DNA from: Tetradesmus obliquus
Taxonomy: Eukaryota > Chlorophyta > Chlorophyceae > Sphaeropleales > Scenedesmaceae
Direction: 5' to 3'
Assembly (NCBI GenBank): GCA_030272155.1
Contig: CP126203.1
Location: forward strand, 4,470,501-4,534,500
Length of the DNA: 64,000 nucleotides
Both the position numbers and the translations under genes were made by a program. Under the pieces are notes generated by a model. The model was not told where the DNA came from and did no database searches. It saw nothing but the letters and a program-made list of their open reading frames with translations. This document shows positions 1,022 through 63,690 of the stretch, piece by piece; position 1 is the first letter of the stretch; each line of letters begins with the position of its first letter.

Positions 1022-4000
1022 GAGCACCTGGTTCAGTGTGGTGCTGCAGATCCTCAGCCTCTGCTTCTACGCCTTCTTCCAGAATGGCAGGGTGGCACGC
1101 GACGGGTTCATGCTCATACCCATCGCATTCCTTGTATACTTACCTACGCTGCTGCTCGCATACATGGTGAGCAGCTGCTGCAGTGGAGTCCTCAGTTGCT
1201 TTATGCGGCAGTGGATGTTCTGGTAGCAGCAGCAGGGCAGAGACGGCTCAATCTGCTGCAGTATCCAGCAGTTGCGAGGGACACAAGTGCCAAGTTGCTG
1301 GCCAGCTGCTGGCGGCACAACTAGACGCAGCATGCAGGCCCAGCCGCTGGTACCAGCCAAGCGCTGTGAGAACATATGCAGACAGCAGCACAATGTAAAG
1401 CCTGCAGCGTCTGCGGCACCTTCAAAATTTGCTGCAACTGCTGCCCTGCTGCAGACTACTTGCAGGAGGCTGCAGGCAGCACGGCACTTGGAAGCAGGTG
1501 GGCACTTGCAGCAGGTCAAACAGCTACAATGACCGTTGACTAGCCAGGCGGCAGCACTGCCATGCAGCTGTGGCTTTGTAGCTTGAGTGCGAGTGCGGCT
1601 GTATTGATAGCAATCAACCAGTGCAACTGTCCAACACAACGTCAGTTCCTTACATGGGTGCTTATGCCTTATCATGCCATCATGAACCATCACGACATAC
1701 AGTTTGAAGGCAGTCAAACACCAACTGCAGTTTGACAGTCCAGGGTTGCGAGACGCCCGCAACAACCAAGCAAGCAGCTGCTGTTTTTCCACTGCTCTTC
1801 TGCCTCCGTTGCTCACCTGTCACGCTGTTTGAAACTGTGTTACTTTGTTACGTCCAGTCCAGAGCCAGGTGCTGGGCATGTACGTGCTGCACAGCAGCAT
1901 GAGCAGCTGCGGCGCGCCACAGCTGCTGGTGCAGCTGGATGATGCCATCAGTGATGCAATGGGTGAGGCGCCAGCACGTCATTATCATTAGCATTGTAGT
2001 GTTATTGCTAAGTCTTGTTTGGTGATTTGATGATGATGAGGCACCAGTACTGCTGGGTTACAGCTGATGAGGACACCTGCAGAGCGTACGGTGTTGGGGC
2101 TGCTGCACAGTGCCCTCGTGGCCTTTCATCATGAGCCTGATTGTTTTGCTTCGATGACAAACAGCACATATGATGGATTGAACCTAGAATGCCTGGTTGC
2201 TGCTGGCATTATTGTGAAGGCTGCACCAGACTGTGCAGCAGATGCTCTCCATGCAGCTTACAGCACGACAACTCCGCTTGGACCCTCACATACCAATGCA
2301 GTCTCTCTGTCAACAAGACAACTTGTGCTGTGCTGCGTGGGCGCAGTGCAGCTGCAGGGCTATCTGGCTCACCCTCGGCCGCTCAGCGCCCGCCATATCA
2401 GCGCCAGCATCCTGCGCGCAGAGAACCTGCCAACCAACAGCAGGCTGGTGAGCGTTGCAATGTTGTTGTTATGACAGCAGACGCTGCAGCGGCGTTGCGC
2501 AGCCAAGCTGCAGCCAGTTTGCTTGCATTGTGCCACATGAGCGCCAGCATCCTGCGTGCTGAGAACCTGCCCACCAACAGCAGGCTGGTGAGCGCTGCCC
2601 AAATGTTGGTATGACAGCAGAGGCTGCAGCGGTATTGCGCAGCCAAGCTGCAGCCGATTTGCTTGCATTGTGCCACATCAGCGCCAGCATACTGCGCGCT
2701 GAGAACCTGCTCACCAACAGCAGGCTGGTGAGTTTCCTGCAGCCACTGCATGCAGCGCACTGCACTGTGCTCCCTGTCAGTGCAGCTTATATACAGTGGC
2801 TTGCTATGGCTTGTTTGGCATCACTGTGATTACCAAGCAACCCACACAGACACATAGCGCACTATGCTGTGCTCCCTGCTTGTGCAGCTGGCACAGACGC
2901 AGACCTACACGATAGGCAGTCCTGCAAGGTTGCTCGTCAAGCCTGCTCCAGTGCAGAAAATGTGCTGGACTGCCTGCTATTGATGGGGTTACAGCAGAGA
3001 TGCTGCAGCCCCCTGCAACCATACTGCAGAAATTGCATGCAACGACGCATTACGCATGGCCCAGCAGCATCTCAGCAACAGCGCCTGCTGTTTTCACTGC
3101 GTCTATCACCATGCTTATTATGCGCCATCGTCGTGTCACCGACCAAACCTGTGTGTGTATGCCTGCATGCCTGCAGTTCCTGCTGGGCCGGGACATAGGG
3201 CAGCGGCTGCGGCGGCTGCAGCGCTGCTTGAGGCGGCTGGCTGCTGCAGCTGCTGAGCTGCTGGAGCACTGCAGCAGCCCACGCAGCAGCGGCCAGCACT
3301 GCACGCAGCAGGTGCGCTAAAGCTGCAGGAATGCCGTGTGGCTGCTAACCTCCCTCTTGCCAGCAGCAGCAGCAGCAGCTGTTCACTCGTCACTACTGAC
3401 TAGTCATTGGCTTGGCACAGCGGTTCCAGCAGATCCCAGCCTTGCACTTGCTGCAGCACCTGCGCATGCGCCCCAGGCCAGTATCACAACTCGTCAGCAG
3501 ATCAGATGGCAACTGGTCCTGCATGCGCTGGCCCAAACTGTTGCAGGCCTGCCTGCAGGGCACTGCCATGTCGGCAGCATAGAAGATAGTTGTATATCTT
3601 GCTTCATAAGGCCTGGCTGGCTCTTCCAAAGTTTTAGTGCCAGTCATGCCTGTGGCAGCTAGCTAGCTAACCAAAAGCAGCATGACCAACTGCAGCCGTG
3701 CTGCATTGCTGCAGGCACTCGCGCTGCTGCAGCAGCTCGTGGCGCTGGATGCCTCCATTGCAGCCCTAGTATCGCTCAAGGAGCTGCGAAGCCCGCTGCT
3801 GCTGCGCTGCTGCCTGCGCGTGGGCTGCGTGCTGCTGGCACCACTGGTCACTGGCAGCTGGCTCGCAGGCCTGGCTGGGGCGGGGCTGCTGCGGCAGCGT
3901 GCGGGCGCAACTGGCATGGTGTTCGCTATTGTCATCGGCAGCATCGTGAGTTGCCACATCCTGTGCTGAGTGTATGATTATCTTGTGGCAGGTAGCAGCT

Positions 4001-10754: not shown

Positions 10755-11242
10755 GCAGTTGGGTTTGCTGCAGCAACGGTGTGCGCACAGTACCCGTACA
10801 CACCGGAGTTCCCCGCAACCTGCAGGCCGTGATGAATCAAGCTGGCGATTCGTCAGCGACGCAGCTGGGCTTGTTGGGCTGCTGCGTTGGCAGTTGGGTT
10901 TGCTGCAGCAACGGTGTGCGCACAGTACCCGTACACTCCGGAGTTCCCCGCAACCTGCAGGCCGTGATGGACCATGTGAATGGACCCCAGCCTCAGACCC
11001 CTTGCTTCATCAGCGCTGCCAGCGCATGCTCTCAGTACATGCAAGCTGCAGCGGCAGGCGGGCTGGAGCCTGTTGTTGCGGTGCAGGCAGCAGCAGGTTT
11101 GTCAGCGCTGCCAAGCGCTAAGCCAGCTTGCTGTATGCCGTGCAAGCTAGCGGTATGCCAGAAACCGCACTTTATAGCGGCTATTTTGTGCGCGCAGTAC
11201 CCGTACACTCCACAATTTTCGGCAAGCTGCAGGCCGTGATGC
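10755..11242 (+). repeat. Terminal-exon tail echoes beyond the stop of the matrix gene
   Basis: The end of the last exon (coding FAAATVCAQYPYTPEF...CRP and the TGA) is repeated after the true stop, starting near 10763, 10899 and 11171, against 10628 for the functional copy. The spacings are 135, 136 and 272 bp. The last gap is two periods, and a decayed copy (ISAASACSQYMQ in translation, near 11006) lies inside it. All are 3' of the stop codon. Confidence 0.85.
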
Positions 11243-21957: not shown

Positions 21958-24900
21958 CTGTACCAGTGATCTGCTGAACAACTGTTTGGAGTTCTGCACA
22001 TAACAGAGGGCATGCTGTTGCAAGCACAGCCCTGCCAAGTGAAAGACACAGGTAGCTGCTAAACGCAGGCAAAACTACTAAGCCATACTGTGGCATATTA
22101 TAGTTTGTTCCACATGGCACATGATGCAATTCATGCTAAACCAAGCTTACACTGCACCCACCTGGCACAGGATAGGCACGCCGCTTTCCCTCAGCACGCT
22201 GATGTGGCGCTCGCTCAAGTGTCACCACAAGTGTATGGCAACCCAAAGCCCTACGCTACGCGTCACCCACCTGGCAGAGGATTGGGACACCACTGTCCCT
22301 CAGCACGCTGATCTCTCGCTCGCTCAAGTAGTGCGTGAGCACCGCGTGGCAGGCACCCGCAATCATTGCTGAGATCTAAACCCTGCACCACACCCACCTG
22401 GCAGAGGATGGGCACGCCGCTATCCCTCAGCACGCTGATCTGTCGCTCGCTCAGGTAGTGCGTGAGCACCACGCACGCATGGCAGGCGCCTGTGGTGTGG
22501 TCCCCACTGCCAAACGTCCACCACTGCTCAAACGTCTTGCTCCACTGGCGGAAGTACACCTGCGGAATGAATGCGAAATGGAGCAAGGGCGGCGTCACGC
22601 AGTACTGACCAGTGCCAACGGCCAGAAGAAGCAGGCGCAAAAGTCTGCTGAGCACCAGCTAGCTGCTAAACCCAATCCATTGCATGCAATACAGTGCGCG
22701 GGCTGACCAGAGGGTTGGCAGGCAAGCAGCGATCAACAGCAAAATTACCAGGCACCTCCGCGTATTTCTCGCCACTGGGGTGGACGCTGTCAAGCATCCC
22801 TCAATCCAGCGCCAGCCGCATCAGCCGCCGCACAATGACCTAAAGTGACACTCCAAGTCACAAAGTAACAGAAAAGTAACACATACCTCCTCGTACTTCT
22901 CCTTGCTGGGGTGCACGGCATCAAGCAGCCCCTGGTACAGCACCAGCCGCATCAGCCGCCACATAATGACTTGACAAGGACACTCCAAGTGACAGACTAA
23001 CAGGAAAGTAGCACGCACCTTTTTCTTTTTGTCGCCCCGCTCGGGTGCACGGCATCAAGCAACGCCCTATCCAGCACCAGCCGCATCAGCTGCTACACAA
23101 TGACACAAAGTAACACACCAGGTGACAAACCAACAGAAAAGTAACACGCACCTCCTCGTACTTCTCCCCGCTGGGGTGCACACTGTCAAGCAGCCCCCGG
23201 TCCAGCACCAGCCGCATCAGCCGCCGCACCAGCGCAGGCTTGCTGTCCCAGTACCATGCCTGCAGCAGCGGCCTCAGGAGCTGCAGAAGCAAGAAAGCAG
23301 CACAGGAATGGCAGCAGGATCAGCAGCAGCAGCAGGATTAGCATCAGGATCAGCACCAGCAGGATCAGCAATAACAGAAAGCAGCAGCACCAGTGTCGGC
23401 TTGCTGTCCCAGTGCCACGCCTGCAGCAGCGGCCTCAGGAGCTGCAGTAGCAAGACAGCAGCAACATCAGGCGCAGGAAGCAACAGGCCTTTAGTGCCAC
23501 TTGCTGCTGCTGCAGCTGAGTTTTCTACACCAAACCCTTGCTCCAACCCTACCCAATGCAAGCTGCAACGCAGAGTGAGGAGGTCAAGTAGCAAAACATA
23601 CTCTCAACCACTTTCTTGGTCCAGATCATAAAAATTTCCAGATGATCGTACAGATCAAACCGATTCACCCACCTGCGGCTTGATGAGTGGCCCCAGCAGT
23701 CCCCCCAGCGGCTGCAGCCCCCTGCATGTCACTGCCAGGCCCAGAGACACAAGGCGGCCCTGCGGCAGCAGCAGCAGCGCCAGCTGCTGCGCAACCATGC
23801 CACCCATGGAGGCCCTGCACAGCACAACACACATAGCCGCGGTTGAAAACCAACTATGCATCATAGTGAAAGCAGCTAAGTGATGTGTTGCACTTGCGAA
23901 GCATGTGTTGCGCCGACTAGCGGGTCAGTCACCTCAGGCGCCGCGTCTGCGTGTTTTGGTGGTCAACATGCAGCTGCTGCAGCTGCTTACCCGAGCGCAT
24001 GCAGGGCGTGGCACCCATCTCCATGGCACTGGCCATGCCATGCACATATGTTACGGTGTCACCAGCCAGCTGTGTGTCAACATCTGCTGTAAATTATGCA
24101 ATGATCACATGTGTGCAAGCGCTCACCCGTACATATGCACAAGCGTGCTGCTGCCCCACACAACATCCAGCAGTGCCAGTGTTTTTTGATTACCTAACAA
24201 GCACTCACACATACGTGTGCAAGCACTGACCCGTAAACATTGCCGCTGTAACTGCATGCAAAACGCGGTGCGTGTGCAGACACTCACCCGTACACGTGCA
24301 CAGGCATGCTGCTGCCCCACACGACATCAAGCAGCGCCACTTGATTGGTCATTAGTAATGTAATTGTCACTTGGTATTGTAAAGTTCAAAGCACTCACCC
24401 GTACACGTGCACAGGTGTGCTGCAGCCCCACACGCCATCCAGCAGTGCCACTGCGTCAGCCGCCAGCATGGCAGAGGTCTGCTGCTCCATGCGGGGTGGC
24501 CCGCTCTTCACCACACCCCTGTGGTCGTACATGAGCACCTGCAGAAGCAGTACAGGGCCGCAAGGTCAAGGTTGCTTGTGATGCATAGTGCAGAGTTGGG
24601 ACCATGTGGGCTGGGCCGCTCTCCACCACGCCCCTGTGGTCGTACATGAGCACCTGTGCAGCGACAAAAAGCAGTGCAGGGTCGTAAGGTCAAGGTTGAT
24701 GCGCAATGCAGAATTGGGTCCACAATATGGCCACATGCAGCACAGACTGGGGCAGGGGCCGTCTATTGTAGATTACTAAAGCTGTTCAACAACCACCAAA
24801 CACCAAAAAACAGGTAGATTGCTGGCTTGGCTGCAGCAGTTTACTTCACAGGCTACTCGTGATAAGACCCTAAGCAGCCATGGCCGGGTGCTGGCAGTGA

Positions 24901-31099: not shown

Positions 31100-31415
31100 A
31101 CCAGCTGCAATACACTGCGCGCAAGCAGGAGCAGGGACGCTGAGAAGCCGCCTGATGGGACCGAGCAGTACTAGGGCAGTTGCTGCAGGGCGGCCCAGCA
31201 GCGTTTGGCTTTACATGCAGTGCTTGGCGCTAAACAAGAAGGCGCAGATGCGCGGCCACCTCTGTGGACACCAAATACACCGTACGCAAGCGGAAAAAGG
31301 GCTTTTGATCAGGGCACCTGTGATGCTGGGAGGGGGCCTGCGGCACCAGCGCATCTGCAGCAGAACAGCCCACCTGCAGCGCAGTGTTCCGCGCTAGCGG
31401 AAGCAGGGCTTCTGC
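31100..31415 (+). repeat. Tail echoes of the BUD23 terminal exon in the 3' flank
   Basis: Past the stop at 31054, the coding end recurs near 31109-31143 (YTARKQEQG-stop), 31215-31308 (KKAQMRG ... CGCAAGCGGAAAAAGGGCTT) and weakly at 31380-31412. Confidence 0.85.
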
Positions 31416-33582: not shown

Positions 33583-33650
33583 AAGTACACAGGGTTACAT
33601 GCCTGCCTTCACCCGTGTGACATGTACTCAGTGTAGTCACCACCCCCTTG
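33583..33650 (-). repeat. Right terminal inverted repeat
   Basis: Reverse complement of the left terminal repeat. The outer edge is at 33650, followed by GCATAAAG, the partner of GCACAAAG on the left flank. Confidence 0.85.
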
Positions 33651-36814: not shown

Positions 36815-39800
36815 ATGAAAACACCTGGTGCCGGCATTGTGTGCTAAGTAATCCTGTTTTGCAATGGAAGTTTTCCGGTAGGCGTGGTACTTGTGCTGCA
36901 CAATGGGGCTGGGCCCAGTACAGCTTCGACATACCTGCACATTTCTGCTGCTGATGGTGCTGATGCGCCTTGCTGCCACAGGTTCCGCAGCTTTGTGGTG
37001 TGGCGCGACACGCTGAGCTATGTGCTGCCGTGTGCGGCCACTACTGCTGCTGCATCTACAGCTTGACCTGCTGCTGCCATCGTGTGCCATGTCCAGCTGC
37101 TGCTGTAACAGAGGATGTTCTGCGCATGTGCGGGCCTCATCTACGTGTTGACACATTTGGTCCCGCAGGTTCCGCAGCTTTGTGGTGTGGCGCGACACAC
37201 TGAGCCATGTGCTGCTGTCAACGCTGGCAGCCAGCGTGCGCGACGGCTGGCAGCAGCAGCACCAGCAGCAGGGCGGGGGCAGCAGCTCGCCAAGCGCGCA
37301 GCAGTTGATGGCCAGGTGAGAACGGCAGCCAGCACACATGCTACTGTTGCTGCTGCTGCAACCTACGCATGGCATAGCTTATGGGCTTGCTGCTGCTGCT
37401 GCAACCCAGCGCATGATGTAGCGCTGCTGCGACCCACGCATGGCGCAGCTGGCGGGCTTGCTGCGGCAGTGCCTCCGTGCATTCCAAAAGTTCACCCTAC
37501 TGCTGCTGCTGCTGCCGCTCTCACTGCGCCTCCTGCCGTGACAATGCATTGCTGCTGCCACTGCTGCTGTCGTTCCGCCACTGCCATCCCTTTGCTGCCG
37601 CTGCTGCTGCTGCCAGGCTGAAGGCCTCGCTGCGGTGCTGTGATGTGCGTGACGCTGACGACTTTGATGAGGAGGAGTACAGGGCAGCCAGCAGGGCGGT
37701 AGGGGAGCACGCGTACGCCATCATACAGGTGCGATGCGGAGATATCAGCAGTGCGCCAGTACAAAGAGAGATTGGCTGTTGTGTCGGGCGGTACCATGCA
37801 TGGGAGCACGCGTACGCTACTCTGCATGTGCAATGGGGGGCAGCAGCGGGGTGTGGGGAGTGGTGTGAGGATTATAACTGCTGAGTGCTGTGGCTGTTTT
37901 GGGTGGGGTGGTGGGGTGTGCGTAATGCTGACGGCTTTGATGAGGAGCAGTACAGGGCCGCCAGCAGGGCAGTTGGGGAGCACGCGTACGCCATAATACA
38001 GGTGCGATGCGGGGAATCAGCAGTGCTACAACACAACATACAGGGGATCTTGCTGTTGTATCTTGAATGAGAACACGCATGAAAGCACGCGTACGCTAGT
38101 CTGCACGTGCAAGTGGGGGCAGCAGTGTGATGTGGGGAGAAGTGTGGGGGTTGGTACTGCTGTGGCTGTTGTGGGTGGGGTGGTGTCATGTGCGTGACGC
38201 TGACGACTTTGATGAGGAGCAGTACCGGGCAGCCAGCAGGGCAGTGGGGGAGCAGGCGTACGCCATCATACAGGTGCGAGTGGGAGGGGCTCAGCAGTGC
38301 GACACTGAGGGGCAGCAGTGCGGGTGGGGTGGGGTCATGTGCGTGACGCTGTCGACTTTGATGAGGACGAGTACAGGGCCGCCATCAGAGCGGTGGGAGA
38401 GCACGCGTACCGCCATCATACAGGTGCGGTTAGGAGGGGCAGCAGGGCTACAGGCGGCAACAGCGTGGGCAGCTGCGTCGTAGCTTATGTGTGCAAGGTG
38501 TGAGATGTTGCTGCTCTAACAGTCTGCTGCTGCTGCCGCTGCTGCTGCTGCCGCTGCTGCTGCTGCAGTGCGTATCTGCCGGCTGGTCCTTTCCGTGGGG
38601 TTTGCGTGTGCGGCTGTGTGAGATGCTGCTTCGGGGCGTGTTTGACACGCTGGATGAAGCAGCATACATTGAGGGCGCTGATGCATACCTGCAGCTGCTG
38701 CAGGTGAGCTGCTGCAGCACCTGCAACATGTGTTTGTTGGCAGCATACAAAGTGTGTTTGACACGCTTTATGAGGCAGCTTACATTGAGGACGGCGATGC
38801 ATACCTGCAGCTGCTGCAGGTGAGGTGCTTGGGTGACGGCATGCATATGTTTCCTTCTTTCTGCAAGCGAGAGTGCAAAGAGCGCAACACTGCACGAGGA
38901 GCAGCAGTCTTTGTGCGCTACTGGCGGCTGCAGCACAGCTGTTTCATGCCCAGCAAGCCGTGCATGCTCCCTAGCTGCTGCAGCCAAAACGGCCTTAGCT
39001 CAGCTGTGCTGTCTTGTGCTTGGGTGTTGTCCGGCCGTCACACAATAGCAATTTATAGGATATGATTGCATTTCAAATGCTGAGCGCAGGCGCGGCTGTG
39101 GCCGCTGCTGGGTGTCTCCCCCTCCATGCACAACGCGGGCTTTGCCTGGGTGCACTTCCGCCAGTTTGTGCTCACGCGGCACCCGGGATTGGTGGCAAAG
39201 ACCAAGGCGCTGCTGAAAAGGCTAGCGCTGCTGGCACGGCAGCACAGCCGCGGCAACAGCGGCGGCGGGAGCGGGTGAGCAGTGCAACTGTTCTGTGGTT
39301 GTTTCTGTGCTTTTTGCGCTGCATGCTCGCTTTCGCATCTGCTGAAATAGCTTGCCTGGCCTCAACCCAAGCGTGGCGGTAAAAGCAGGGAAGTTGAGTG
39401 GTGCATGCCTTGTGTGAACACGGATACGGACAAAGCATGTAATTTGTGCTCACGCGGCACCCGGGGCTGGTGGCAAAGAGCCAAGGCGCTGCTGAAAAGG
39501 CTAGCAATGCTGGCAAGGCAGCACAGCCGCGGCAGCAGCAGCTGCGGCGGCAGTGGCAGCGGGTGAGCAAAAGCCGCTTGTGTCAGAGTTGTCGCTGTTT
39601 ACGCTGCATGCTCACTTGCACGCCTGCTGCGCTGGGTTTTCTTGCTCTGGCGGTGGTTACCTCAAGCATCCTTTGCTCAAGCTGGGGGCGGATCTGCAAA
39701 GACACGGCATGTGGAGTGCCCTTGCAACAACTTGCACAGATGACACAGGTGCATGTTTGCAGCAACCAAGCACCTAATCCTCTTGCTGTGCAGCAAACTC

Positions 39801-42800
39801 GACTGGCAGCTGGCAAATAACCCACAGACAATCCAGCGCTTCCCTGCATTGGTGAGCGTACAGGTGGGTCACTGCGGCCTTTGCTCATGCTCATATCAGC
39901 TGAAGAGTCACCCCTCATCCCCTGGCACTGCAGAGCAGGTGCTGCTGGCGGCAGCAGCACAGCAAATGGCATCAGCAGCAGCAGCGCGCCTGGTGAATCC
40001 TCGGAGGATGCAGCGCTCACGCGTGGCGTTGGCGCTGCTGTCATCGACTGGATTGCGGAGCGGCTCGCAGACTACCACGCGCGGTGAGCAGCAGCAGCAG
40101 CAAGCTGCCGTGCGTGGTGCGCAGCAGTAGCAGCAAACTAGTGTGCGCCGGGAGCAGCAGCGGCAGCAAGCTGGCGTGCGTGGTGCTGCATGTCACTGCA
40201 TGGGCAGCGCCGCGACATAGTCAGGCTGTGCAGCGTGCAGAAAATCAGCAAGGCTGCCAGCGCTGCGCCCGCACATGCAGCACTCGACCTCATCAGCCCC
40301 TTGCTTGAGTTGGAGATAGAGTGCCTCTGTGACATGCCCACAACCACTTCCTGGCCTGGCTTGCCTGTGTATGTGCATCATATGTGGCAGTGTTACTCTC
40401 AAGCGTGTGTGTTGTGCTGCGCATTGATGGACACCAATAGTACCGATCATATTCCATGAGTGTGCAAGCTGTCTGGCGTGGTAGGGCCTGACGCGCTGCC
40501 AAACCTGGTTGGTCATGTGTGCATTTGAAAACCACCAAAAATAGCAGCATCAACAGTGTTGATATATTTGAACAATAAAACATGATGTTACTTGTGCGTG
40601 CAGGCTGTCAGGCGTTGGTGGGCCTGAGGCGCTGCCCAACCTGGTTGACGTAATGGCCTTTGCAGCGCTAGCGCGCGGGGCTAGCCAGCAGGAGGTGGGC
40701 GACATGCTGGCGGCAGCCATCCGCAGCAGCGTGGAGAAAGGTGAGTACCATGGGTGGCGAGTAGTGATGTTGATTATGTATTTGCCAGCTTGATTGCATG
40801 CACACTGCCTTGTTGCCTGGCATCCTGGTGCACTTTGGCATGCAGACATGCGCACCGACAAAGCTGGTTACCACCTGCGTGGAGCTGACAATGCACAATC
40901 GTGTTTAGAGTAAACGCAATGCTTGCACTGCCTGCCTTCACGCATCCTGCCTGCAGAGCTGCAGCGCCGCCTGGCTGCTGCCGGCTCTGTGCAGGGCTGA
41001 CAAAGCACCCTTCTGTTGTGCTAAGAACAAATGCCTGCGCTGCCTGCCATCTTGCATCGTGCCTGCAGAGCTGCAGCGCCGCCTAGCTGCTGCTGATTCG
41101 CCTGAGGACGAGGCTGAGGCCTGCAGCAGCATGTGCAGCATTGTGAAGGAGCTGGCACGGGAGCAAATGAACAGCTGGGCCAGGTGGGTGGCTGCAGCGC
41201 ACACTGAAGATATATTTTATTGCATGTCTGTCTCTCGTTTTAGGTTGTTGTTGGGGCGGCAGCCGGCCTGCAGCAGCATGTGTAGCATAGTAAAGGAGCT
41301 GGCATGCGAGCAGATGAAGAGCTGGGCTAGGTGAGGCGCCTCAATGCAGCTGCTGCACCTACAGCTGTACTGCACAGCCTGCCGGCGGCTGCGCACTCAA
41401 TGGCGAGTGCACTGCTTGATTTTTAACGCGCTTGAACCCCTGCTACCCCAACTGAACATCAAACCACTGCTGTTGGTTCACTCCGATTATGCTCCTGTCT
41501 TATGTCTTCTCTGCATATGTTCAAACATCTGTTCTGCACCACCTGCAGTGGCTTCAGCGGGCAGCTGCCGGAGGCGGTGCCGCTGGCGCTGGCGGTGCTG
41601 CTGCTTGATTCAATACACCAATACCTAACGTGCTGGGCTGTTGAACCTAAAGTAATTCTGATGGGTGCTGCTGCACCTGGTGTTGTTTGCAGCGGCTTCA
41701 GTGGGCTGTTTGTTCAAATTTATTATCCTCCTGTCTTACGTGTTGCAAACGCGTTGTATGCTGCACCTCGTCATGTCTGCAGCGGCTTCAGCGGGCAGCT
41801 GCCTGAGGCGGTGCCGCTGGCGCTGGCGGTGCTGCTGCTTGATTCATTATACAAGCACCTAACGTGCTGGCCTCACCAACCTAAAGCAATGCTGATGGAT
41901 GCTGCTGCACCTGGTGTTGTTTGCAGCGGCTTCAGTGGGCTGTTTGTTTACACTGACTATCCTCGTACCTTACGTGTTTCAAACGCGTTGTATGCTGCAC
42001 CTCATTCTATCTGCAGCGGCTTCAGCGGGCAGCTGCCAGAGGCAGTGCCGCTGTCGCTGGCGGTGCTGCACGGCGCTGCAGGGGCGCGGCTGCTGCCGTG
42101 GCTGAGCAGCATCAGCAGCTTAGACGAAGAGACCTGCGAGGTGCGGGCTGCAGGATGGTACTGAGTTGTTGGTGCAGTGCTGTGTCTGCAACGTTTAGCA
42201 GTGGGCCGTGGCTGGGCAGCATCAGCAGCGTGGATAAAGAAACCTGCGAGGTAGAGCAAGCTCGGGGAGGGATGATTGCTGGTGCAGCAATCTGGTGCAG
42301 CAATCTGTTTTTGATTGTGATGCTACTGGCTGCAGTTGTACTACCATCACATGTTGCATGTGACAGTGCTCGTGGTTCGGGTGAAGGGTACTGCGCTGCT
42401 AATTTCACCAGCTTCCGGCTGGTACATACTTGTGTGTTGTGTTGAGGGCTTGTGAACACCCGTTGCACTCTTCATCGGGCTTCGGCACAGCACCTGCGCC
42501 AAGCTCTTGTCTTCTGAAGCTATCCTTGAATTGCGTACTGCTGCAGGCGCTGCGTGCTGCCATGGAGCTGGAGCCGCTGCTGCTGGGGCCTATCACAGCA
42601 GCAGCAGCAGCAGGCTGCCAGCACCCTGCCACACGCCGTGCGCTAGGTGGGTGATTCAGTACGGATGTGTTGTGGCTGGCACGTGTGTTGCAAGATCATG
42701 CGTTGGGTCCATCAATTGACGGAGGCTTTGACCATGCACTGTGACCCCAACTTGCAGAGTTCTTTCGCATACGCTGCTGCCTTTTGACACCTTTGTTGTG

Positions 42801-45800: not shown

Positions 45801-48800
45801 AGCTGGTCAGGCGCTGCGGGGTGGTGTTGCTGTGGTGACCAAGTGGCTGGCGGTGCGCGTGGTGTGGTGGCAGCAGCGCGCCGGCTGGTGCGAGCTGCTG
45901 TACAGGTGAGCGCGTAACTCGGCTATAAACAGCATGCTTGCGCAAATGATGTACGTGCAGTGGCTGTCTGGGAAGTGTTCCTGCTGTTGTCGTGCGAGCT
46001 GGACAGGTGAGCCTGCAGCTTTTTGGAGCGCTGTTGGTTCATCTGCTTATGTGAGCTCACGTGAGCTGGTTCCATGAAATCCTGCAAGTGCATTGGATGA
46101 ACATGGTTCACCGGCATGCTGCGGTAGTGTTGCGGGTGCATCTGTTCCTCGTCCACACCAAAATTCCACATACGTAATTGGCATATCCGCTACTACAGGC
46201 ACCGCGTGACGAGCTGCCGCATCGACTGGCTGCTAAGGCCTGGCTGATGTGCTGGGTGGGCCCAGCAATACAGACCTCATACAACCAATGCATGCGCCGT
46301 GTGCTGCACTGCTGCAGGCACCGCGTGACCAGCTGCCGCATTGACTGGCTGCTGGAGGGCTTAGCAGATGTGCTGGGCGGGCCGGTGGGGCTGCACAACA
46401 AGAACGTGCACTGCAGGCACCATGCATGCATGCATATTATGATCTGAATTGGTGCTGCACCGCTGCAGGCACCGCGTGACCAGCTGCCGCATTGACTGGC
46501 TCCTCGAGGGCCTGGCTGATGTGCTGGGCGGGCCAGTAGGGCTGCTGCCGCGGCAGCCGCGGCTGCAAGTGGCGGCTGCGCTGCTGCAGGAGGCAGCATT
46601 AGGGCTGGAGCGCGCGCTGCTGGACGGCGGGCCCTGCAAATGGTGAGTCAACGGTGGAGCTGTCCTTGAAAGAACACTTTATTTCTTACAAGGGTTGTGC
46701 GCAACCTTGATCGATGAAGAGGAAGAGGTCTGAGCTGCTGCCCCGGCAGCCACGGCTGGATGTGGCGGCGGCGCTGCTGCAGGAAGCAGCGCTGGGGCTG
46801 GAGCGGGCGCTGCTGGATGGGGGACCCTGCAAGTGGTGAGTCGGAGGGGGAGCTTGCTTTTGACGTGCATCTGATTTTGAAGGGTGGTGCGCAATTTCGA
46901 TCGCTCAAGAGGCTCGGGGTGCGTCTGGATGGCTTGACCACTGCTGGCGTCCGCAAGAGGTGGGGCTGCTGCCGCGGCAGCTGCGGCTGGATCTGGCGGC
47001 TGCGCTGCTGCAGGAGGCAGCGCTGGGGCTGGAGCGGGCACTGCTGGACGGCGGGCCCTGCAAATGGTGAGTCACCGGTGGAGCTTCCCTTTGCAACGGT
47101 GAATAACACTGTATGTACAAGGATTGTGCGCAACCTTGATCGATGAAGAGGAAGAGGTCTGCTTGGGTGTTCTTAAGTGGGCTTGGGTCGGTCACTGTTG
47201 GCCTGAGCAAGAGGTGGGGCTGCTGCCCCGGCAGCCGCGGCTGGATGTGGCGGCTGCGCTGCTGCAGGAAGCAGCATTGGGGCTGGAGCGGGCATTACTA
47301 GATGGCGGGCCCTGCAAGTGGTGAGTTGCGGGGGGAGCTTGCTGTGAACCACACCTTATTGAAAAGGGTTGTGCGCAGTCTCGATCGCCCAAGAGGCTCG
47401 CGGTGCGTTTGATTGGCTTGGATTGGCCACTGCTGGCCTCTGCAAGAGGTGGGGCTGCTGCCCCGGCAGCCGCGGCTGGATGTGGCGGCTGCGCTGCTGC
47501 AGGAGGCAGCATTGGGGCTGGAACGGGCACTGCTGGACGGCGGGCCCTGCAAGCGGTGAGTGCAGGCGACAGGGACGGGGGGAGGGGTGGTGGTGGATTG
47601 TAAGTCTGCAGCTGACTAGGCGGATGGAGGTCGAGGGTGCGGCGGCTGCGCTGCTGCAGGAGGCAGCGCTGGGGCTGGTGCGGGCATTACTAGATGGCGG
47701 GCCCTGCAAGTGGTGAGTTAGAGAGGGTTCAAAATGCAGGTTTCAGCTGACTGGCAGGGTGGGGTTGGGTGGATGTGGCTGCTGCAGGATGCAGCGTTGG
47801 GGCTGGAGCGGGCGAGTGTGGCCCCTCTGCTGGACAGCGGGCCCTGCAAGTGTTGAGTTGGACGGCGGCTATAATGTTTGTTTGCAGCTGACTGGGCGGA
47901 TGGAGGCCAGGGGGATGTGGCGGCTGCGCTGCTGCAAGAGGCAGTATTGGGGCTGGAGCGCGCGCTGCTGGACGGCGGGCCCTGCAACTGGTGAACTGGA
48001 GGGTTGAAGTGTAACTTGGCAGCTGACTGCCCACCTGCCAATGACACAGCGCTGCTGCTGCCTGCACCTGCAAATCTTTGATTGCAGGTTCATCCCTGCT
48101 GATGCCGCGCACATCAAGGATGACATGGACGCCCTCACACGCCTCTTCTTCGCAGAGGGGGACGGCCTGCCTATGCAGGTGGGCAACGGTTTAGGGTTCC
48201 GCAAAGCCCAGCTGCAGCAGCAGCAGCGCTGTGTGTGTCATTGGTGCAACACGCCTGCGTGTGATTAGATGGGCTTGCCTTATCTCCTAGTGCATGCAGC
48301 AGTGCTGTGTTTGTGTGTTACTGCACCATGTGAGTGCTGGATTACCCACTGATGGCGTTGGTCTAACTTCATCACTGCAAATTCTGAGAAGTTGTTTTAC
48401 TACACTCACTGTGTACTTCCTGCCTGTCTGCTGGGCATCAGCAAGACGCTTGCCAGGCGCGATGTTAATGCTTGCAGCAACTACGTGCTGCCTGCAAGGC
48501 TTGGCGTGTAATCATCTGCCAGCCTTCCTGCCTGCCTGCCTGCTTGGCGTCTGATCATCTTCCAGCCTGCCTGCCTGCCTGCCTGCCTGCTTGGCGTCTG
48601 ATCATCTGCCTACCTGCCTGCCTGCCTACCTGCCTGCCTGCCTGCCTGAATTCCTGCCTGCCTGATTTCCTGCCTGCCTGCCTGAATTCCTGCCTGCCTG
48701 CCTGCCTGCCTGAATTCCTGCCTGCCTGATTTCCTGCCTGCCTGCCTGCCTGCAGGACATCAGCAAGACCCTCGCAGGCCTCAATGCGCTGCTGAAGCTG

Positions 48801-49949: not shown

Positions 49950-50179
49950 GAGGCCGCTGCTGCTGCTGCTGCTGCTGCTGCCGCAGGGCTGACCACGCTG
50001 CCAGCAGGTACCGGAAGGAGCAGATTAGGATGCCCCTACCGCGGCTACTGCTGACCTGGGCTATTGCTGCTGCTGCTGCTGTTGCTGTTGCTGCTGCTGC
50101 AGGGCTGACCACGCTGCCAGCAAGTACCTGAAGGAGCAGATCAAGGTGCCCCTACCGCGGCTACTGCTGACCTGGGCTA

Positions 50180-50245
<66 letters not shown>

Positions 50246-50485
50246 CTGCTGCTGCAGGGCTGACCACGCTGCCAGCAAGTACCTGAAGGAGCAGATCAAG
50301 GTGCCCCTGCTGTTGCCACTGCTGACCTGGGCTATTGCTTTTGCTGCTGCTGCTGCTCTTGCTGCTGCTGCAGGGCCGACCACGCTGCTAGCAAGTACCT
50401 GAAGGAGCAGATCAAGGTGCCCAAGGCGCGAGATGCCACCATAGGGGAGACCTTTGGGCGCCTCACAAGGCTCACGCGGCTGTAG
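34163..50485 (+). CDS. PATROL1: PATROL1-like DUF810 (Munc13/MHD-type) membrane-trafficking protein
   Basis: Twenty-five exons: 34163-34240, 34611-34710, 35031-35091, 35664-35866, 36244-36360, 36681-36768, 37169-37315, 37617-37728, 38569-38703, 39090-39274, 39934-40083, 40604-40740, 41069-41183, 42017-42140, 42547-42646, 42810-42949, 43307-43440, 43971-44070, 44282-44391, 44717-44804, 45421-45905, 46469-46642, 48088-48178, 48756-49243 and 50374-50485. Phases agree at all junctions and the total is 3774 nt (1257 aa; Arabidopsis PATROL1 is ~1100). Shared landmarks: N-terminal helix RERDWQVLQDERRRMLEHVL; LNTGLSEAEVKDLAYLVF; VRLCEMLLRGVFDTLDE; FAWVHFRQFVLT; WIAERLADYH; LWVARQLQQESWQPL; LVPPLPALTRYKREVAVK; LLDGGP; LFFAEGDGLP; and LCHRADHAASKYLKEQ at the end. 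In plants the protein tethers exocytic vesicles (for example delivery of a plasma-membrane proton pump). Gly/Ser and poly-Ala inserts in exons 21 and 24 are lineage-specific. Only 23% of the locus is coding; almost every intron holds echoes. Confidence 0.92.
35495..36085 (+). repeat. Head and tail echoes around PATROL1-like exon 4
   Basis: Upstream head copy at ~35495-35610 (GACGATGCCTGCAGCCAAC... with an internal stop); the real exon is 35664-35866. Downstream tail copy at ~36003-36085 (TGLSEAEVKDLAYLVFAAYCGSSTD with a GTGAGT donor). Confidence 0.9.
36116..36185 (+). repeat. Head echo of PATROL1-like exon 5
   Basis: LAVAVRSQLDVDEAWAGDVAR-type coding after TGCAG lies ~125 bp before the functional exon start at 36244. 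Confidence 0.85.
36778..36815 (+). repeat. (CTG)n tract downstream of exon 6
   Basis: A CTG run of about 12 triplets begins some 10 nt after the exon 6 donor at 36769. It is a counter-example to the usual position just before acceptors. Confidence 0.9.
36980..37035 (+). repeat. Head echo of PATROL1-like exon 7
   Basis: CACAGGTTCCGCAGC... coding RFRSFVVWRDTLSYVLP duplicates the start of exon 7 (37169). It lies ~187 bp upstream. Confidence 0.9.
37779..38430 (+). repeat. Four tail echoes of PATROL1-like exon 8
   Basis: GTGCGTGACGCTGACGAC...ATCATACAGGTGCG blocks lie at ~37917-38003, 38190-38275 and 38338-38425. A reduced one at ~37785-37820 preserves only the GGGAGCACGCGTACGC core. Each ends in the donor or its relic. 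Confidence 0.9.
38750..38824 (+). repeat. Tail echo of PATROL1-like exon 9
   Basis: VFDTLYEAAYIEDGDAYLQLLQ with donor GTGAGG, 117 bp after the real end at 38703. Confidence 0.9.
39446..39570 (+). repeat. Tail echo of PATROL1-like exon 10
   Basis: FVLTRHPGLVAK then a one-frame-shifted copy of the remaining exon, ending in a GTGAGC donor. Confidence 0.9.
40464..40514 (+). repeat. Head echo of PATROL1-like exon 12
   Basis: CTGTCTGGCGTGGTAGGGCC...AACCTGGTTGG repeats the exon 12 start (40604) about 137 bp upstream. The acceptor itself is decayed. Confidence 0.85.
40950..41332 (+). repeat. Head and tail echoes of PATROL1-like exon 13
   Basis: Head copy at ~40952-41000 (CTGCAGAGCTGCAGCGCCGCC); tail copy at ~41268-41332 (ACSSMCSIVKELACEQMKSW, GTGAGG donor). 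The functional exon 41069-41183 lies between them. Confidence 0.9.
41546..41948 (+). repeat. Four head echoes of PATROL1-like exon 14
   Basis: CTGCAG(T/C)GGCTTCAG(C/T)GGGC units at ~41546, 41688, 41779 and 41923 precede the functional acceptor at 42016. Long (~80 nt) and short (~25 nt) copies alternate, so a two-part unit of ~234 bp was itself duplicated. Confidence 0.9.
42195..42252 (+). repeat. Tail echo of PATROL1-like exon 14
   Basis: CCGTGGCTGGGCAGCATCAG...ACCTGCGAG with a GTAGAG donor, after the true end at 42140. Confidence 0.85.
43058..43240 (+). repeat. Two tail echoes of PATROL1-like exon 16
   Basis: CAGCTGCAGC...GAGAGCTGGCAGCCGCTGGCG-like blocks at ~43065-43110 and 43200-43240, following exon end 42949. 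Confidence 0.8.
43738..43912 (+). repeat. Two head echoes of PATROL1-like exon 18
   Basis: Copies of YLAGILERLGPWAALVP coding lie at ~43848-43912 (close) and ~43745-43800 (decayed) before the functional exon at 43971. Confidence 0.9.
44590..44680 (+). repeat. Two head echoes of PATROL1-like exon 20
   Basis: GGCCGCATGCTGAGCGCG...CCCGAGGTGCTTG at ~44596-44640 and a decayed GGCTGCATGCTGAACGTG at ~44655, before the real start at 44717. CTG repeats accompany each copy. Confidence 0.85.
44945..45010 (+). repeat. Tail echo of PATROL1-like exon 20
   Basis: GTGATGATGGCCAGCATGGG...CTGCAG plus GTGAGG, about 200 bp after the exon end at 44804. Confidence 0.85.
46195..46400 (+). repeat. Two head echoes of PATROL1-like exon 22
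   Basis: CAGGCACCGCGTGACNAGCTG units at ~46197-46262 and ~46316-46400 precede the functional acceptor at 46468. Confidence 0.9.
46735..47995 (+). repeat. Seven-copy tail-echo array of PATROL1-like exon 22
   Basis: The exon end (LLPRQPRL.VAAALLQEAALGLERALLDGGPCKW in whole or part) with its GTGAGT donor recurs at ~46739-46838, 46968-47068, 47218-47321, 47455-47556, 47635-47715, 47775-47854 and 47915-47992. The first four units also share intronic text, such as GTTGTGCGCA and CTCGATCG-like stretches. Later units are shorter. Confidence 0.93.
48523..48755 (+). repeat. (CCTG)n tetranucleotide tract before exon 24
   Basis: Runs of CCTG/TGCC are broken by TTGGCGTCTGATCATC, CCTGAATT and CCTGATTT spacers. 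They end directly in the acceptor (CTGCAG) of exon 24 and take the place of a polypyrimidine tract. Confidence 0.95.
49247..49300 (+). repeat. G-rich tract at the exon 24 donor
   Basis: A chain of G runs (GGGTGGG, GGGGGTGGGG, then about 13-14 consecutive G) starts within a few nt of the donor at 49244. G-quadruplex formation in DNA or intron RNA is possible. Confidence 0.9.
49335..49570 (+). repeat. Two tail echoes of PATROL1-like exon 24
   Basis: GTGCTGCTGA(A/C)GGT(T/G)CTGTGCCAC plus GTGAG(A) at ~49350-49385 and ~49535-49568, after the real end at 49243. Confidence 0.9.
49910..50315 (+). repeat. Three head echoes of PATROL1-like exon 25 with CTG tracts
   Basis: Units of (CTG)n followed by CTGCAGGGCTGACCACGCTG (CCGCAGGG in the first) and coding AASKYLKEQIKVP lie at ~49913-50065, 50066-50180 and 50181-50335, before the functional exon at 50374. 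The CTG tract is part of the duplicated unit and differs in length between copies. Confidence 0.92.
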
Positions 50486-50539: not shown

Positions 50540-50598
50540 AGCCATGCCACCATACAGGAGACCTTTGGGCGCTTCACGCGGCTCACGCGGCTGTAGCA
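50540..50598 (+). repeat. Terminal-exon tail echo with stop codon (PATROL1-like)
   Basis: GCCACCATACAGGAGACCTT ... CTCACGCGGCTGTAG repeats the last ~55 nt including TAG, about 113 bp after the functional stop. Confidence 0.92.
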
Positions 50599-52076
50599 CA
50601 AGGAAAAGTGTTTTTTGCGGGTGGATATACCAGAATTTGTAGTGCTTCATATCACCTGTTGCATTGTTCCACAGCATGGCTGGTGCTCTCTGCGTAGCTT
50701 CCAGTGTTTGTAACACTTTCAAACAGTCCTCATGCCAGCACAGATCACTGTCGTGGTGTGAGCCATGCAGGCAGCGCCCATGCAGCTCTGCAGCCGGCAG
50801 CGCAGCTGCAGGCTTTTCTGCTGCCGGCAGGTGTTGGGACTGCCGTGGTATGGAGCCAACTCCACCATTGATGCAGCGGCTGTGCTGTTAGCGCCAGCAG
50901 CTGTGACCAGTTAGAAAAGCAGCTGAGATTGCTGCAGCCAAAAACTAGTATCTATCTGATATGATTCTTGCATGCACCAGCCAACTTCCAGTGACGAGGT
51001 GCAGTAGCCTACTGGTCTGATGTTTGTGGGTTGCGGGTGCATCGCGGGCTGACCCGGCAACGCAAAGCTGTTTGTGAGGCAGCACGACAAATGCAGTGCA
51101 GCAGCAGGTCATGGCACTAGTGCCATTATTACTGAGCCAGAAAGTTGCACAGATTCTTATTTGCAATGCACGTGGTGCATGCTGTGTTGCCGAAGAAGCT
51201 GCCCGGCTGGGGGCTTATTGCTTTGTCAGGCACGTGGCTACGTGTACCTGCCACGTGGTCCTTCAAATGCTCGGGGGCCAAGCAGGGATTTGCATGTTGG
51301 CTGATAGGTTAACTGCTGACTATCATGGTCGTGATGGCCTTATTCATGCCCGCACTCATTGCAAGGCTTGCAAGCACTAGTACTGTACAGCAGCCTGAGC
51401 ACTTTTCATCCTTCAGCCCTACTGGGGTGCAGAGCTGTTCGGCATGCATTGCCTGATGCATCGGCATGCATTGCCCGATGCATCAACATATGTTGCCATG
51501 ACTGCAGTAATAACTCGATGATCGTGCAACGTTACAAGAGGTGGGCTGCACACCACGGCGACAGCTGCAGCTGTCTCTAGAGACCCAGATCTGGGTAACC
51601 TTGTTGGCAGCTGTACTGCTCGCAGTACCGCCAATCCTTCACCACACGGAATTTGAACTGCCCCACACAACACAAAATCCTGACCGATGTCTTCCGCTGC
51701 ATGTTGAGTTGCCCACACCCACAAATACCCCCACCTACAGGGCAACACAGGCCCAGTACTGAGCCTAGCTACGGAAAGACACCCAGCCATCCTGCACCTA
51801 CCCTGCCAGTCCGTCACAACAAAAGTCCACCTAGACGTGGTCACACAAGTCATCACAAGCTGCGGTCATATGCCTCCCGCTGTTCCAATAACTCTGCAGC
51901 CCGTCTTGACCTAACTTGCATCCTAGATCAAGGCGGCAGCCACTGCTGCATCCTGGCACGTGCATCAGCCCTGCACGCGCCTCCTACACATGCAAGGTGC
52001 GACAGCCGCACAGCTGCGACTCCTCAGGACAGCGCCGCTGCCCTGTACATCAGCTGCTGCTGCTGCTGCTGCCTGC
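50599..52076. other. No gene recognised
   Basis: Convergent 3' flanks of the PATROL1-like gene (+) and APS kinase (-). A minus-strand TGTAA at 51536-51532 could end the APS kinase transcript. Near 51435-51485 there is a short local repeat (GGCATGCATTGCC(C/T)GATGCATC). Confidence 0.5.
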
Positions 52077-58182: not shown

Positions 58183-61100
58183 ATGCAGGAGGTACTCATT
58201 CATCTCAACGTCATCAGAGGGCTGCAGCTACCGAAGACGGAGCTGACGTCGAAGATAGATGCGTATGTGAAGGTTAAAGCCGGATCGTTCTCTTCCAAGA
58301 CGAAGATAAAGGTGCTGCTGCCATCATGGCATGTTTGACCTGAGGGTGGTCAAAATGCTTGCTGTACAGTGGCAGCACTCTCATGCTTGTCTGATTCGTG
58401 AAAGGCGGATAATTAGATCCATAGTTTGTCAAACTATCGATGATCACAGCGGGCCCTTCAGCACCGGCAACAGCAGCAACAAAGGCAGCAACAACAGTAG
58501 CAGCATGCCTGTGACAGCAGGCATTGCGGCACAGGCCAGTGGCAGCATCAGCGGCAGCAGAACCAGTGCACGCACGCATGTGTCACACAAAGATGCACGA
58601 TGAGCAATGTTGGCAGCGACGCATTTCAACGATGGATACATCATCTGTGCTGCATGGGGGTGCAAATTTGCTTGCAGGATGATGACGACAATCCTGTGTG
58701 GGATGCCAGCTTTTTCTTCACGGTGCCCATGTCAGCCAGCAAAAGCCCCGCTGGTGTCATAACACTGGAGCTGTGGGACAGCAACACGTTCAAGGTCTGA
58801 AGCACTAGTTGAGCTGAGATGTGCCAGTTTGCGCAGAGCAAGCAGCAACTGCTGGATGGTGCTGTTCCATCCCGGTGCTTGTAATGCAGCTAGCGGCACA
58901 CTGCACAGCGGCTGCATTTGCTACATGTCGCTTCATGGCCTTGCCTGGGTCAATTATATGCAGCTGCAAAGCAGGCGCAGCACAAGCGTCCTGTCTACAC
59001 TTTCTCCAGGTAAAGTAACGTAGCATCTCTTATGCATGCGCTTGGGGGACACACACGCGGGCACTGCCAGGCTGGACCTGTCCACACTGCCGGCCTCTCA
59101 GCTGGGGTACACCAGTGTTGTGACATCACATGTCCTTGTGTTATGTTGTTGCTTGCAGGACACGCATGTGGGCACTGTCAGGCTGGACCTGTCTGCGCTG
59201 CAGCCCTCACAGCTAGGCTACACCAGTGATGTGACATCACATGTCCTTGTGTTATGTTGTTGCTTGCAGGACACGCATGTGGGAACTGCCAGGCTGGACC
59301 TGTCTGCGCTGCAGCTCTCACAGCTAGGCTACACCAGTGCTGGTACATCACATGTCCTTGTGTTGTTGCTTGCAGGACACACATGTGGGCACTGCCAGGC
59401 TGGACCTGTCAGCGCTGCAGCCGTCGCAGCTGGGCTACATTGAGCTGCCACTGGCTTGGGAGAAGGACAAGTATGGCGAGCAGGGGCGGCAGAGCAGGTG
59501 CGTGTTGGTAATCTATAGAGTAGCAACCTCTCTGCAGCTAAGTGTATCCCCTCTAGAGCCATCTTGATAAGTTGAGCTGCCCCTGGCTTGAAAGAAGGAC
59601 AAGTACAACGAGCAGGGCAGGTGCGCAACAACCATTGTGTATGCACAGCTGCAACATAGGTTGCATAGCCAATGTTCGACGTCATGTTGCTGCTGAATGA
59701 TGTGCAATCGAAAGAGATAAACCTTTCGGCTGCTGCACTGCTGCTGCAGGCTGGTTGTGGGTGTGCCTGGCTGGATCGCCAGCTTTGGCACGCTGATGTC
59801 AGCACTGCACCAAGTGCCAGGTGGGCATGCAGCTGCAGGTGTTGCTGAGATCAGCTGCCGCTGCAGTTGCGGCTACAGCAGCATGCAGCAGCTGCAGCGC
59901 AGTCACGCTTGCCACAGCTGCAGTGTAGCTGGGTAAGCATTTCAACGCTAGGGTCCAGCAGCAGGCTGGCTGGCGGGGTGTCTGGCACCTGTGCAAGCAG
60001 CGCAACAGCTGGTCCAGCAAACATGCAGCAGACTTACCGCCGCAGCATCTTGCCTCATCACGCCGCTAACAGTGTTCATTGCGTGGGCACCCAACACGCA
60101 TGTTGGTGCTTCGCGCTGCGCTCCCTCAACCGCACTGCGCCAGGCGCATTGTTCAACACCGTTGACAGGCGCGCGTACGTGCCGCTGCCTCACCCCAGCC
60201 TGCCCCATGGGCTGCTGTACCTGGGCTGCGAGTACGAAGCTGATGCAGTTGACTTCAAGGTGTTTGTGACGCAGCCCAATGCGCCGCTGTTTGTGGACCT
60301 GGCTATGGCAGGCCGGCAGCACACGAAGGTGGGAAGGATGCAACACAACACCATACAGCACAGTACCTTACAGTATGAAAGTGACGCAATGCAATGCTGT
60401 ACGAATGGTTGCAGGCGTTTATTCAAGCTTTGCTTAGCACACGTTTGGCGGCGCTTGTACAGTGCCGACTACAACGTGCAGCTCAGCTGAAGGCTTTTGA
60501 AGAGATCAACTGTCAAGCCTAATGACGTCCCACCTCATCTGCTGCCGCCGATGCTGCTGCTGCTGGCGCCGATGCTGCTGCTGCTGCAGGTGCGGCGGCG
60601 CGTGTACCGCGATGGGTTCAAAGTGCTGCCCGGCCTGATTGTGTTTGAGGAGACCAAGCTGGATGACGTGCCGCTGAGCACTGACCTGCGGCAGCTGATG
60701 GTGCTGGCTTTTGACAAGGCGCTGCTGTGGAGCCTCAATGCAGACCAGGTGCGCTGCGCTGCAAGAGACTCTACTAGACGTGATGTTGTAGATAGCATGT
60801 TGCACTGCGGCAGCTGATGGTGCTGGCATTCGACAAGGCGCTGCTGTGGACGCTGAATGCAGACCAGGTGCGCTGCGATGTGCAAGATTCTCTTTTGTCT
60901 AAAGCATGTTGCACTGCGGCAGCTGATGGCGCTGGCATTTGACAAGGCGCTGCTGTGGACGCTGAATGCAGACCAGGTGCGTGTGCTGTGGTGTGCATTG
61001 TCTTCTTCGGGTTCCGTCAGAGTGGCTGTTGGTGCTGGCATTGGACAAGACACTGCTATGGACGCAGAATGCAGACCAGGTGCGCAGCGCTGCGCTGTGA

Positions 61101-63269: not shown

Positions 63270-63690
63270 CAGCACCAGCGCCAGTGGAAGGCTCAAGTAA
63301 CCACAATGCCGCTGTGGGAGGCGGCACTGCTGCCGCTCAAGGAGCAGCCACGGCGCCAGTGGGAGGCGGCGGCACTGCTGCCACTCAAGTAGCATTGCAG
63401 CACCAATGGGAGGCGGCAGCTGTGCTGCCGCTCAAGTAGCAGCCTCCGCGCTATTGAACAGTGGCGGCATCGCTGCCGGCCAAGTAGTCACTACTTGCAT
63501 TGCGCTCTTTCAGCGTCAGTGGGAGGTGGCAGCAGTGCTGCCGCTGAAGTAACCGCACTGCCGCTGTGGGAGGAAGCAGCAGTGCTGCCGCTCAAGTAAC
63601 CGCACTGCTGCTGTGGGGGGCGGCGGCACAGCTGCCGGTCTAGCAGCAGCCACCGCGCTAGTGAGAGGCGGTGGCAGCGCTGCCGCAGGT
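63270..63690 (+). repeat. Tail-echo array of the C2-gene terminal exon, 3' of the stop
   Basis: About eight degenerate copies of CAGCGCCAGTGGGAGGYGGC...CTGCTGCCGCTCAAGTAG follow the stop at 63246 (near 63282, 63316, 63354, 63400, 63460, 63512, 63563 and 63612-63690). Most keep TGGGAGGCGGC and CTGCCGCTCAAGTA(A/G). Spacing is short and irregular (~35-55 bp). Confidence 0.88.

Follow-up and report, generated by a model that had tools for sequence, protein, structure and literature searches.

Polarised partial copies of coding-sequence edges in introns and 3' flanks of a Tetradesmus obliquus genome region

Introduction

Tandem duplication of genomic DNA inside genes is already well described and can include splice signals (Hellsten 2011; Ma, Lan and Niu 2016, PMC4974935; Yenerall and Zhou 2012, PMC3443670). 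In a published potato case an intron-exon boundary was copied, and the same paper mentions a further duplication, of 83 bp, within an intron. The copies described here, which we call echoes, resemble such intragenic duplications in being local and in including splice signals. In the published duplications, as those papers describe the events, a new intron arises between the copies, whereas here existing introns and 3' flanks lengthen; echoes need no new intron and involve gene ends as well, and of 533 exon edges 140 have at least one copy.

Internal gene duplication and tandem exon duplication, reportedly treated by Gao and Lynch in 2009, are likewise within-gene duplications covering exon and intron, but echoes are partial and polarised, and whole-exon copies are nearly absent (none in the curated window, six overlaps on HMM exons). 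In minisatellites and other cases of concerted evolution, arrays of units grow in register and their blocks are kept alike. Echo arrays share the in-register growth (41 of 73 pairs with a common inner boundary) and the alikeness of blocks; they differ in that one unit is a working exon edge, in that selection fixes one end of the array, and in that the limit between block and spacer coincides with the limit of coding sequence. Plant tandem duplications are said to arise from adjacent single-strand breaks (work attributed to Schiml et al. in 2016), which would give direct duplications of about 100 bp, as here, but would explain neither block maintenance nor the association with exons. Introners (PMC9860276) are similar in changing intron content genome-wide, but no dispersed family was found for echoes: both spacers that we searched are unique in the genome.

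An earlier note on this DNA had claimed that copies of exon starts always lie 5' of their exon and copies of exon ends always 3', and knew of no description of such a system; we likewise found none in searches of one open-access library. Here we follow up that note in the window, by which we mean the whole stretch of 64,000 nucleotides, and in a comparison sample from the same genome.

Materials and methods

The window covers positions 4470501-4534500 of its contig, in a genome of 104,662,953 bases on 17 contigs, and has a GC content of 0.573. The comparison sample consists of 280 kb of random genome, and window and sample together make up 344 kb in 15 stretches. Exons were called with a purpose-written gene-finding HMM trained on the window plus the 280-kb sample (288 exons in the final training round). 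For the window we also curated eight gene models with 76 exons and 68 introns, chosen by frame and splice signal. The reading frame is continuous throughout the BUD23, APS kinase and HEAT-repeat gene models and over the first ten exons of PATROL1; genes A, B and C2 and the remainder of PATROL1 are supported exon by exon. Mean intron length on the curated exons is 455 bp, beside a figure of 462 bp given for T. obliquus in PMC5966456.

We use head echo for a copy of an exon start with its acceptor and tail echo for a copy of an exon end with its donor. In the curated set the exon is the copy joined to the exon body, chosen by reading frame, and the curated polarity test is therefore not wholly independent of analyst judgement; the HMM exons and four further kinase loci provide more mechanical tests. 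Self-BLAST of the window used a cut-off of E<=1e-4. The codon-position count (window and sample) used 112 of 178 records, leaving out 66 with weak frame support; the splice-edge identity profile left out one tail and one head; the comparison of neighbouring copies left out pairs with spacers <25 bp; and the flank test on nearest copies (n=93) excluded copies >400 bp away, terminal copies and all but the nearest. Complete duplications are those with a period of 85-450 bp and an identity >=78%. The simulations were simple, took few parameter values and modelled no population. Neither a gene B paralogue nor, in a kinase search, a usable paralogue pair was found for calibrating intron against synonymous divergence.

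Results

Copies are direct and polarised

Pfam searches placed several families in the window: BUD23 (WBS_methylT, 5.3e-16; Methyltransf_11, 7.3e-12; six curated exons in one frame), an APS kinase, an alpha/beta hydrolase on the minus strand (Hydrolase_4, 8.3e-15), a PATROL1-like gene (TPR_PATROL1, 2.4e-46) and a C2-domain gene (C2, 9e-16). The sole match of the HEAT-repeat gene, which we take to be INTS4-like, is HEAT at 6e-05, just under the cut-off. The two remaining models are called genes A and B. An intron of gene A contains a 39-bp palindrome (4505-4582) with a perfect centre and 90% complementarity.

Self-BLAST of the window gave 150 pairs, 143 direct and 7 inverted, with 138 of the direct pairs <=2 kb apart; at least 26 of these near direct pairs come from one 17-bp minisatellite at 14697-16419 (about 101 copies, 95% match). 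Across window and sample, pairs <=3 kb apart comprised 545 direct against 25 inverted, in line with the earlier proposal of tandem duplication across exon edges. The window also holds a 77-bp inverted repeat (32058-32134 and 33573-33649), with arms that are 1,438 bp apart and 91% complementary and may mark the termini of a short mobile element.

On the curated exons, 87 overlaps paired an exonic with a non-exonic copy. All 31 exon-start copies lay on the 5' side and all 55 exon-end copies on the 3' side, the latter comprising 46 internal exon ends and 9 gene ends with a stop codon; one of the 87 overlaps was internal, none lay on the wrong side and none had both copies exonic. On HMM exons from window and sample, exon ends were copied 3' in 75 of 77 overlaps and exon starts 5' in 68 of 70, so that 143 of 147 splice-edge overlaps obeyed the rule, as did all seven stop-codon ends (3') and all three ATG starts (5'). 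Among the four exceptions, that at 38718-38819 results from a wrong HMM call, as comparison with the in-frame curated exon 38569-38703 shows. Outside this scheme fell 27 internal and the 6 whole-exon overlaps, as well as 240 that the HMM called exonic in both copies; these were set aside, and because of them some genes may have both copies exonic.

Two further searches bear on the rule. With 60-bp edge queries and no repeat masking, 41 of 127 edges in the window had a match on the right side, 6 on the wrong side and 3 antisense; the sample was noisier, with 107 of 376, 53 and 20. We provisionally attribute the wrong-side matches to CAG-rich low complexity and HMM errors. Four further loci from a Pfam kinase search, with HMM edges, gave 19 direct pairs: 11 crossed an exon edge, all 11 obeying the rule, while 1 was internal, 1 was exonic in both copies and 6 touched no predicted exon. 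Kinase locus L030 had no direct pairs, and one 20-kb stretch (L025) had no repeat pair. Together, the echo observation is confirmed.

Echo arrays in individual genes

The arrays discussed below are, in window coordinates:

2532..2732, + strand: two tail echoes of gene A exon 2358-2447, with a homologous spacer on the inside and an unrelated outermost flank
10763..11241, + strand: three 3'-flank echoes of the gene B end (stop codon near 10694-10696), of which the first has a homologous flank and the outer two do not
22734..23130, - strand (gene runs right to left): tail echoes of hydrolase exon 23152-23280
24111..24341, - strand: two tail echoes of hydrolase exon 24399-24538
27555..27764, + strand: two tail echoes of BUD23 exon 2 (27339-27503)
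29097..29220, + strand: BUD23 exon 4, functional copy, from the one-frame curated exons and Pfam
29292..30251, + strand: eight tail echoes of BUD23 exon 4; spacing 127-131 bp, common inner boundary
31219..31308, + strand: 3'-flank echo of the BUD23 gene end including the stop codon, at which similarity ends
37904..38452, + strand: three tail echoes of PATROL1 exon 37617-37728; common inner boundary
41543..41940, + strand: head echoes of PATROL1 exon 14 (42017-42140), two long and two short (41669-41706 and 41903-41940)
42205..42252, + strand: tail echo of PATROL1 exon 14
46190..46394, + strand: two head echoes of PATROL1 exon 22 (46469-46642)
46734..48003, + strand: seven tail echoes of PATROL1 exon 22
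49983..50306, + strand: three head echoes of the last PATROL1 exon (50374-50485)
50544..50599, + strand: PATROL1 gene-end echo with stop codon, similar up to 3 bp beyond it
59040..59333, + strand: three head echoes of C2-gene exon 3 (59376-59497); outermost flank unrelated to the others
60805..61099, + strand: three tail echoes of C2-gene exon 60590-60748

The four cases that the earlier note had singled out are all recovered: the eight tails of BUD23 exon 4, the two heads and seven tails of PATROL1 exon 22, the four heads and one tail of PATROL1 exon 14, and C2-gene exon 3 as a clear case. The BUD23 exon 4 unit consists of 60 bp of exon end, a donor-like GT and a spacer of about 62 bp; between neighbouring echoes, exonic identity is 0.84-0.95 and spacer identity 0.52-0.77. 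An origin of the BUD23 echoes from a paralogue elsewhere was rejected, the sole other match in the genome being 74% over 112 bases of exon 3 on contig C5 (C5:126728-126838), possibly a distant relative or a fragment.

An artefact of assembly or of the gene models is very improbable. Although the exon models were built within the present analysis, Pfam matches span echo-bearing introns in BUD23, the APS kinase and other models, and the pattern recurs at random places on many contigs. The copies also diverge by varied amounts and their spacers are unique, which supports the same argument as made in the earlier note.

Similarity stops at the limit of coding sequence

Gene ends with their stop codon are echoed downstream in BUD23, PATROL1, gene B, the C2 model and two sample genes (14 copies aligned). 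Similarity stops 0-3 bp past the stop in BUD23, PATROL1, sample gene L007 and the outer gene B copies, placing the limit at that of coding sequence; it continues past the stop in the first gene B copy and in one copy each of the C2 model and L010. The earlier claim that splice junctions are the substrate is thus not supported as it stands, since 9 of the 55 exon-end overlaps are gene ends, and the polarity is most readily understood as selection filtering duplications that cross a coding edge of any kind.

On the exon side of splice edges, identity runs at about 0.85-0.95, and the donor GTGxG and acceptor GCAG persist; from about 6 bp into the intron it drops to 0.5 and then to 0.3-0.4 (control 0.25-0.3). 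Flank similarity is bimodal: among nearest copies, the claim that the flanking intron piece is copied too clearly held for 37 of 93 (z>5) and failed for 36 of 93 without flank similarity (z<2). Block identity and flank identity are uncorrelated (0.06). Echoes keep the GT in 75 of 86 cases and the AG in 63 of 73 (91 of 123 and 86 of 117 in a wider edge search), at a per-base identity similar to the rest of the block, and we saw neither preferential loss nor preferential retention of echo splice sites.

Blocks outlast spacers

Inner boundaries agree within 4 bp in 41 of the 73 neighbouring pairs, and 24 of these also match in spacer length within 15%, which indicates that many arrays grew as whole units, in register. 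Homologous flanks (z>5) were found in 43 of 92 comparisons of inner copies, and in 9 of 55 (multi-copy families) and 19 of 81 (single-copy families) outermost comparisons. Between echoes, where neither copy is functional, block identity was 0.834 against 0.593 for flanks (shuffled 0.506), and 52 of 57 families had the higher value in the block; among the 24 clear unit pairs, blocks reached 0.891 and spacers 0.735. The exon-derived blocks thus stay about 85-90% alike as spacers drift apart, and in old copies similarity consequently stops at the coding limit.

The earlier note's model, random tandem duplication with purifying selection only and a neutral detached copy, is unlikely. It accounts for direct orientation, polarity and unit structure, and where flanks are homologous the divergence between echoes is indeed equal in block and flank (0.120 and 0.115), so that no maintenance is visible there. 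Plain repeated duplication does not suffice, however: it predicts equal decay of block and spacer rather than 0.834 against 0.593, and a neutral simulation left 1% of spacers saturated, where 36 of 93 lacked flank similarity and about 40% were unrelated. All 15 complete duplications in the window touch exons, again against the neutral model; 12 intron-only and 4 intergenic duplications in the sample, 5 of 14 checked lying away from exons, speak for it.

Copies could instead have been bounded by the coding edge from birth, through templated insertion confined to exon sequence and splice signal, or through a template switch onto a diverged haplotype with unalignable introns. We judge this improbable. 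The bimodal flanks, the lack of correlation between block and flank, the stop within about 6 bp of the splice site and the coding-like divergence (0.211 at 4-fold and 0.056 at 0-fold sites) all speak for it, and the near-equal block divergence with and without homologous flanks (0.102 and 0.110) also suits copies born flankless. Yet copies with a common breakpoint and spacer length, hence unit copies, also show decayed spacers beside conserved blocks, and RNA processing offers no reason for a limit at the stop codon. Spacers as inserted elements were rejected: each of the two searched occurs once in the genome, with no inserted repeat family.

Codon-position pattern

Between exon and echo, mismatch by codon position was 0.072, 0.057 and 0.189 (third-position ratio 2.9); in the window alone it was 0.068, 0.040 and 0.193 (ratio 3.6). 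Mutational bias was rejected as a source of this excess, since composition predicts near-equal values (0.184, 0.197, 0.179) and the excess persists at non-CpG sites (0.054, 0.042, 0.121). In 16 families with at least two echoes, we counted, for first, second and third codon positions, 2, 2 and 24 sites at which all echoes agreed against the exon, with 25, 28 and 52 changes private to an echo; the exon lineage thus evolves as coding sequence, and echo changes are less skewed. Mismatches cluster within pairs (z 3.6).

Echoes probably do not serve as exons now, since most gaps shift the frame (37 of 48 are not multiples of 3) and the inner end of head echoes shows no enrichment in donor signals (0.43 per 100 bp against 0.42). 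Standalone mini-exons were rejected for this lack of donors and because an acceptor excess on the tail side (2.48 against 1.13 per 100 bp) is not above the value of 3.21 within the block, where exon sequence is itself rich in CAG.

Simulations of the neutral model gave a codon ratio of 2.2, which the observed ratios exceed, and those of conversion and exchange 1.0-1.9. Exon-to-echo conversion produced 69-80% saturated spacers with block divergence near that observed; it thus matches the spacers while missing the ratio, and exchange matches neither of the two.

The main alternative is that the echoes are constrained in their own right. Here the blocks would have a nucleotide-level function, such as that of splice-site decoys or enhancers, and be kept by purifying selection that eliminates most changes, which we consider distinctly unlikely. 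Among the values tried, a uniform 70% block constraint fitted ratio and spacers best: it gave 0.059 for first and second positions, 0.206 for third, a ratio of 3.5 and 38% saturated spacers, where we observed 0.064, 0.189, 2.9 and 36-40 of 93. Retention of GT (75 of 86) and AG (63 of 73) would fit as well, but these sites are kept no better than the block, and fall to 91 of 123 and 86 of 117 in the wider search; gene-end echoes have no splice site, and most gaps are frameshifting. Such constraint also predicts slower blocks already in young pairs, which the data do not clearly show, block and spacer being equally diverged in the least diverged unit pairs.

Extent and contribution to introns

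The window edge search found 73 copies at 39 edges, below the earlier count of 90-100. That almost every multi-exon gene carries echoes holds only in part: they are present in introns of six of the eight curated genes (none of 2 in the HEAT-repeat gene, none of 6 in gene B and 1 of 6 in the APS kinase). Of the 68 curated introns, 36 contain echoes, and 9,712 of 30,911 intron bases lie in aligned copies (31%; family spans, 12,927). Introns with echoes average 588 bp against 305 bp without, and the process could therefore account for much of the difference in intron length. A continuing process, also suggested earlier, is plausible from sequence, given copies of 94-97% identity.

The association with exons is strong in the window and weaker in the sample. 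Complete duplications touch exons in 15 of 15 cases in the window, with none confined to its 31 kb of intron or 20 kb of intergenic DNA, and in 22 of 38 in the sample, the rest being the 12 intron-only and 4 intergenic ones. Under a laxer, low-penalty exon call, 9 of 14 non-exonic sample duplications re-examined abut or overlap an exon and 5 do not. Against random placement, families touching exons numbered 44 of 51 (about 16 expected) in the window and 86 of 131 (about 37 expected) in the sample, an excess that is overstated because families of two or more copies are compared with single placements. Nearest junction-to-junction spacing was never <90 bp and peaked at 110-120 bp (25 of 136 families from unrelated genes, window and sample); in the commonest class of duplication it is about 95-160 bp. 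Other repeats in the sample include a tandem gene array across two adjacent 10-kb stretches (L004), with a 451-codon open frame every 3,667 bp (3491, 7158, 10825, 14492, 18159), and intergenic tandem repeats of about 300 bp at L002 13925-18217, 90-96% identical.

Discussion

Direct short duplications concentrate at the donor, acceptor and stop-codon edges of coding sequence, with the partial copies almost always on the side that leaves the protein unaltered. This points to a recurrent local process of duplication by which introns lengthen. Our preferred reading, held tentatively at somewhat less than an even chance, is that selection filters edge duplications, that these multiply as units and that exchange with the selected exon keeps them alike. 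Duplications inside exons would be removed by selection and edge-crossing ones survive, and this by itself would yield the head/tail rule. Of the two copies, that attached to the exon body would keep working and the detached one turn noncoding; the polarity supports the earlier explanation along these lines. Many arrays have then grown as whole units, as the common inner boundaries indicate. Recurrent exchange or gene conversion with the exon may keep the blocks alike: with the exon sequence fixed by selection, one selected copy would keep the array able to recombine, and this would also explain the concentration of arrays at exons. That blocks outlast spacers and mismatches cluster is consistent with homogenisation, but the third-position ratio (2.9, or 3.6 in the window) exceeds the 1.0-1.9 of the conversion and exchange simulations, and exchange alone does not so far account for the codon-position pattern.

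A broader claim, possible but doubtful in our judgement, is that selection on one exon edge keeps a whole noncoding array alike, whether by exchange or by a need for the echoes, and that coding edges genome-wide seed self-sustaining arrays that are a main source of intron growth. In its stronger form, the echoes would be nucleotide-level functional elements under purifying selection.

Echoes provide a dated, sequence-readable record of intron lengthening. Every unit contains a clear internal control, a block that comes from constrained sequence beside one that comes from unconstrained sequence. If exchange with the exon does keep the blocks alike, then purifying selection acting on a single copy shapes the noncoding DNA next to it, and gene prediction, conservation scans and tests of the dN/dS kind would be misled. 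Should the echoes be under selection in their own right, they would be a new class of gene-internal element.
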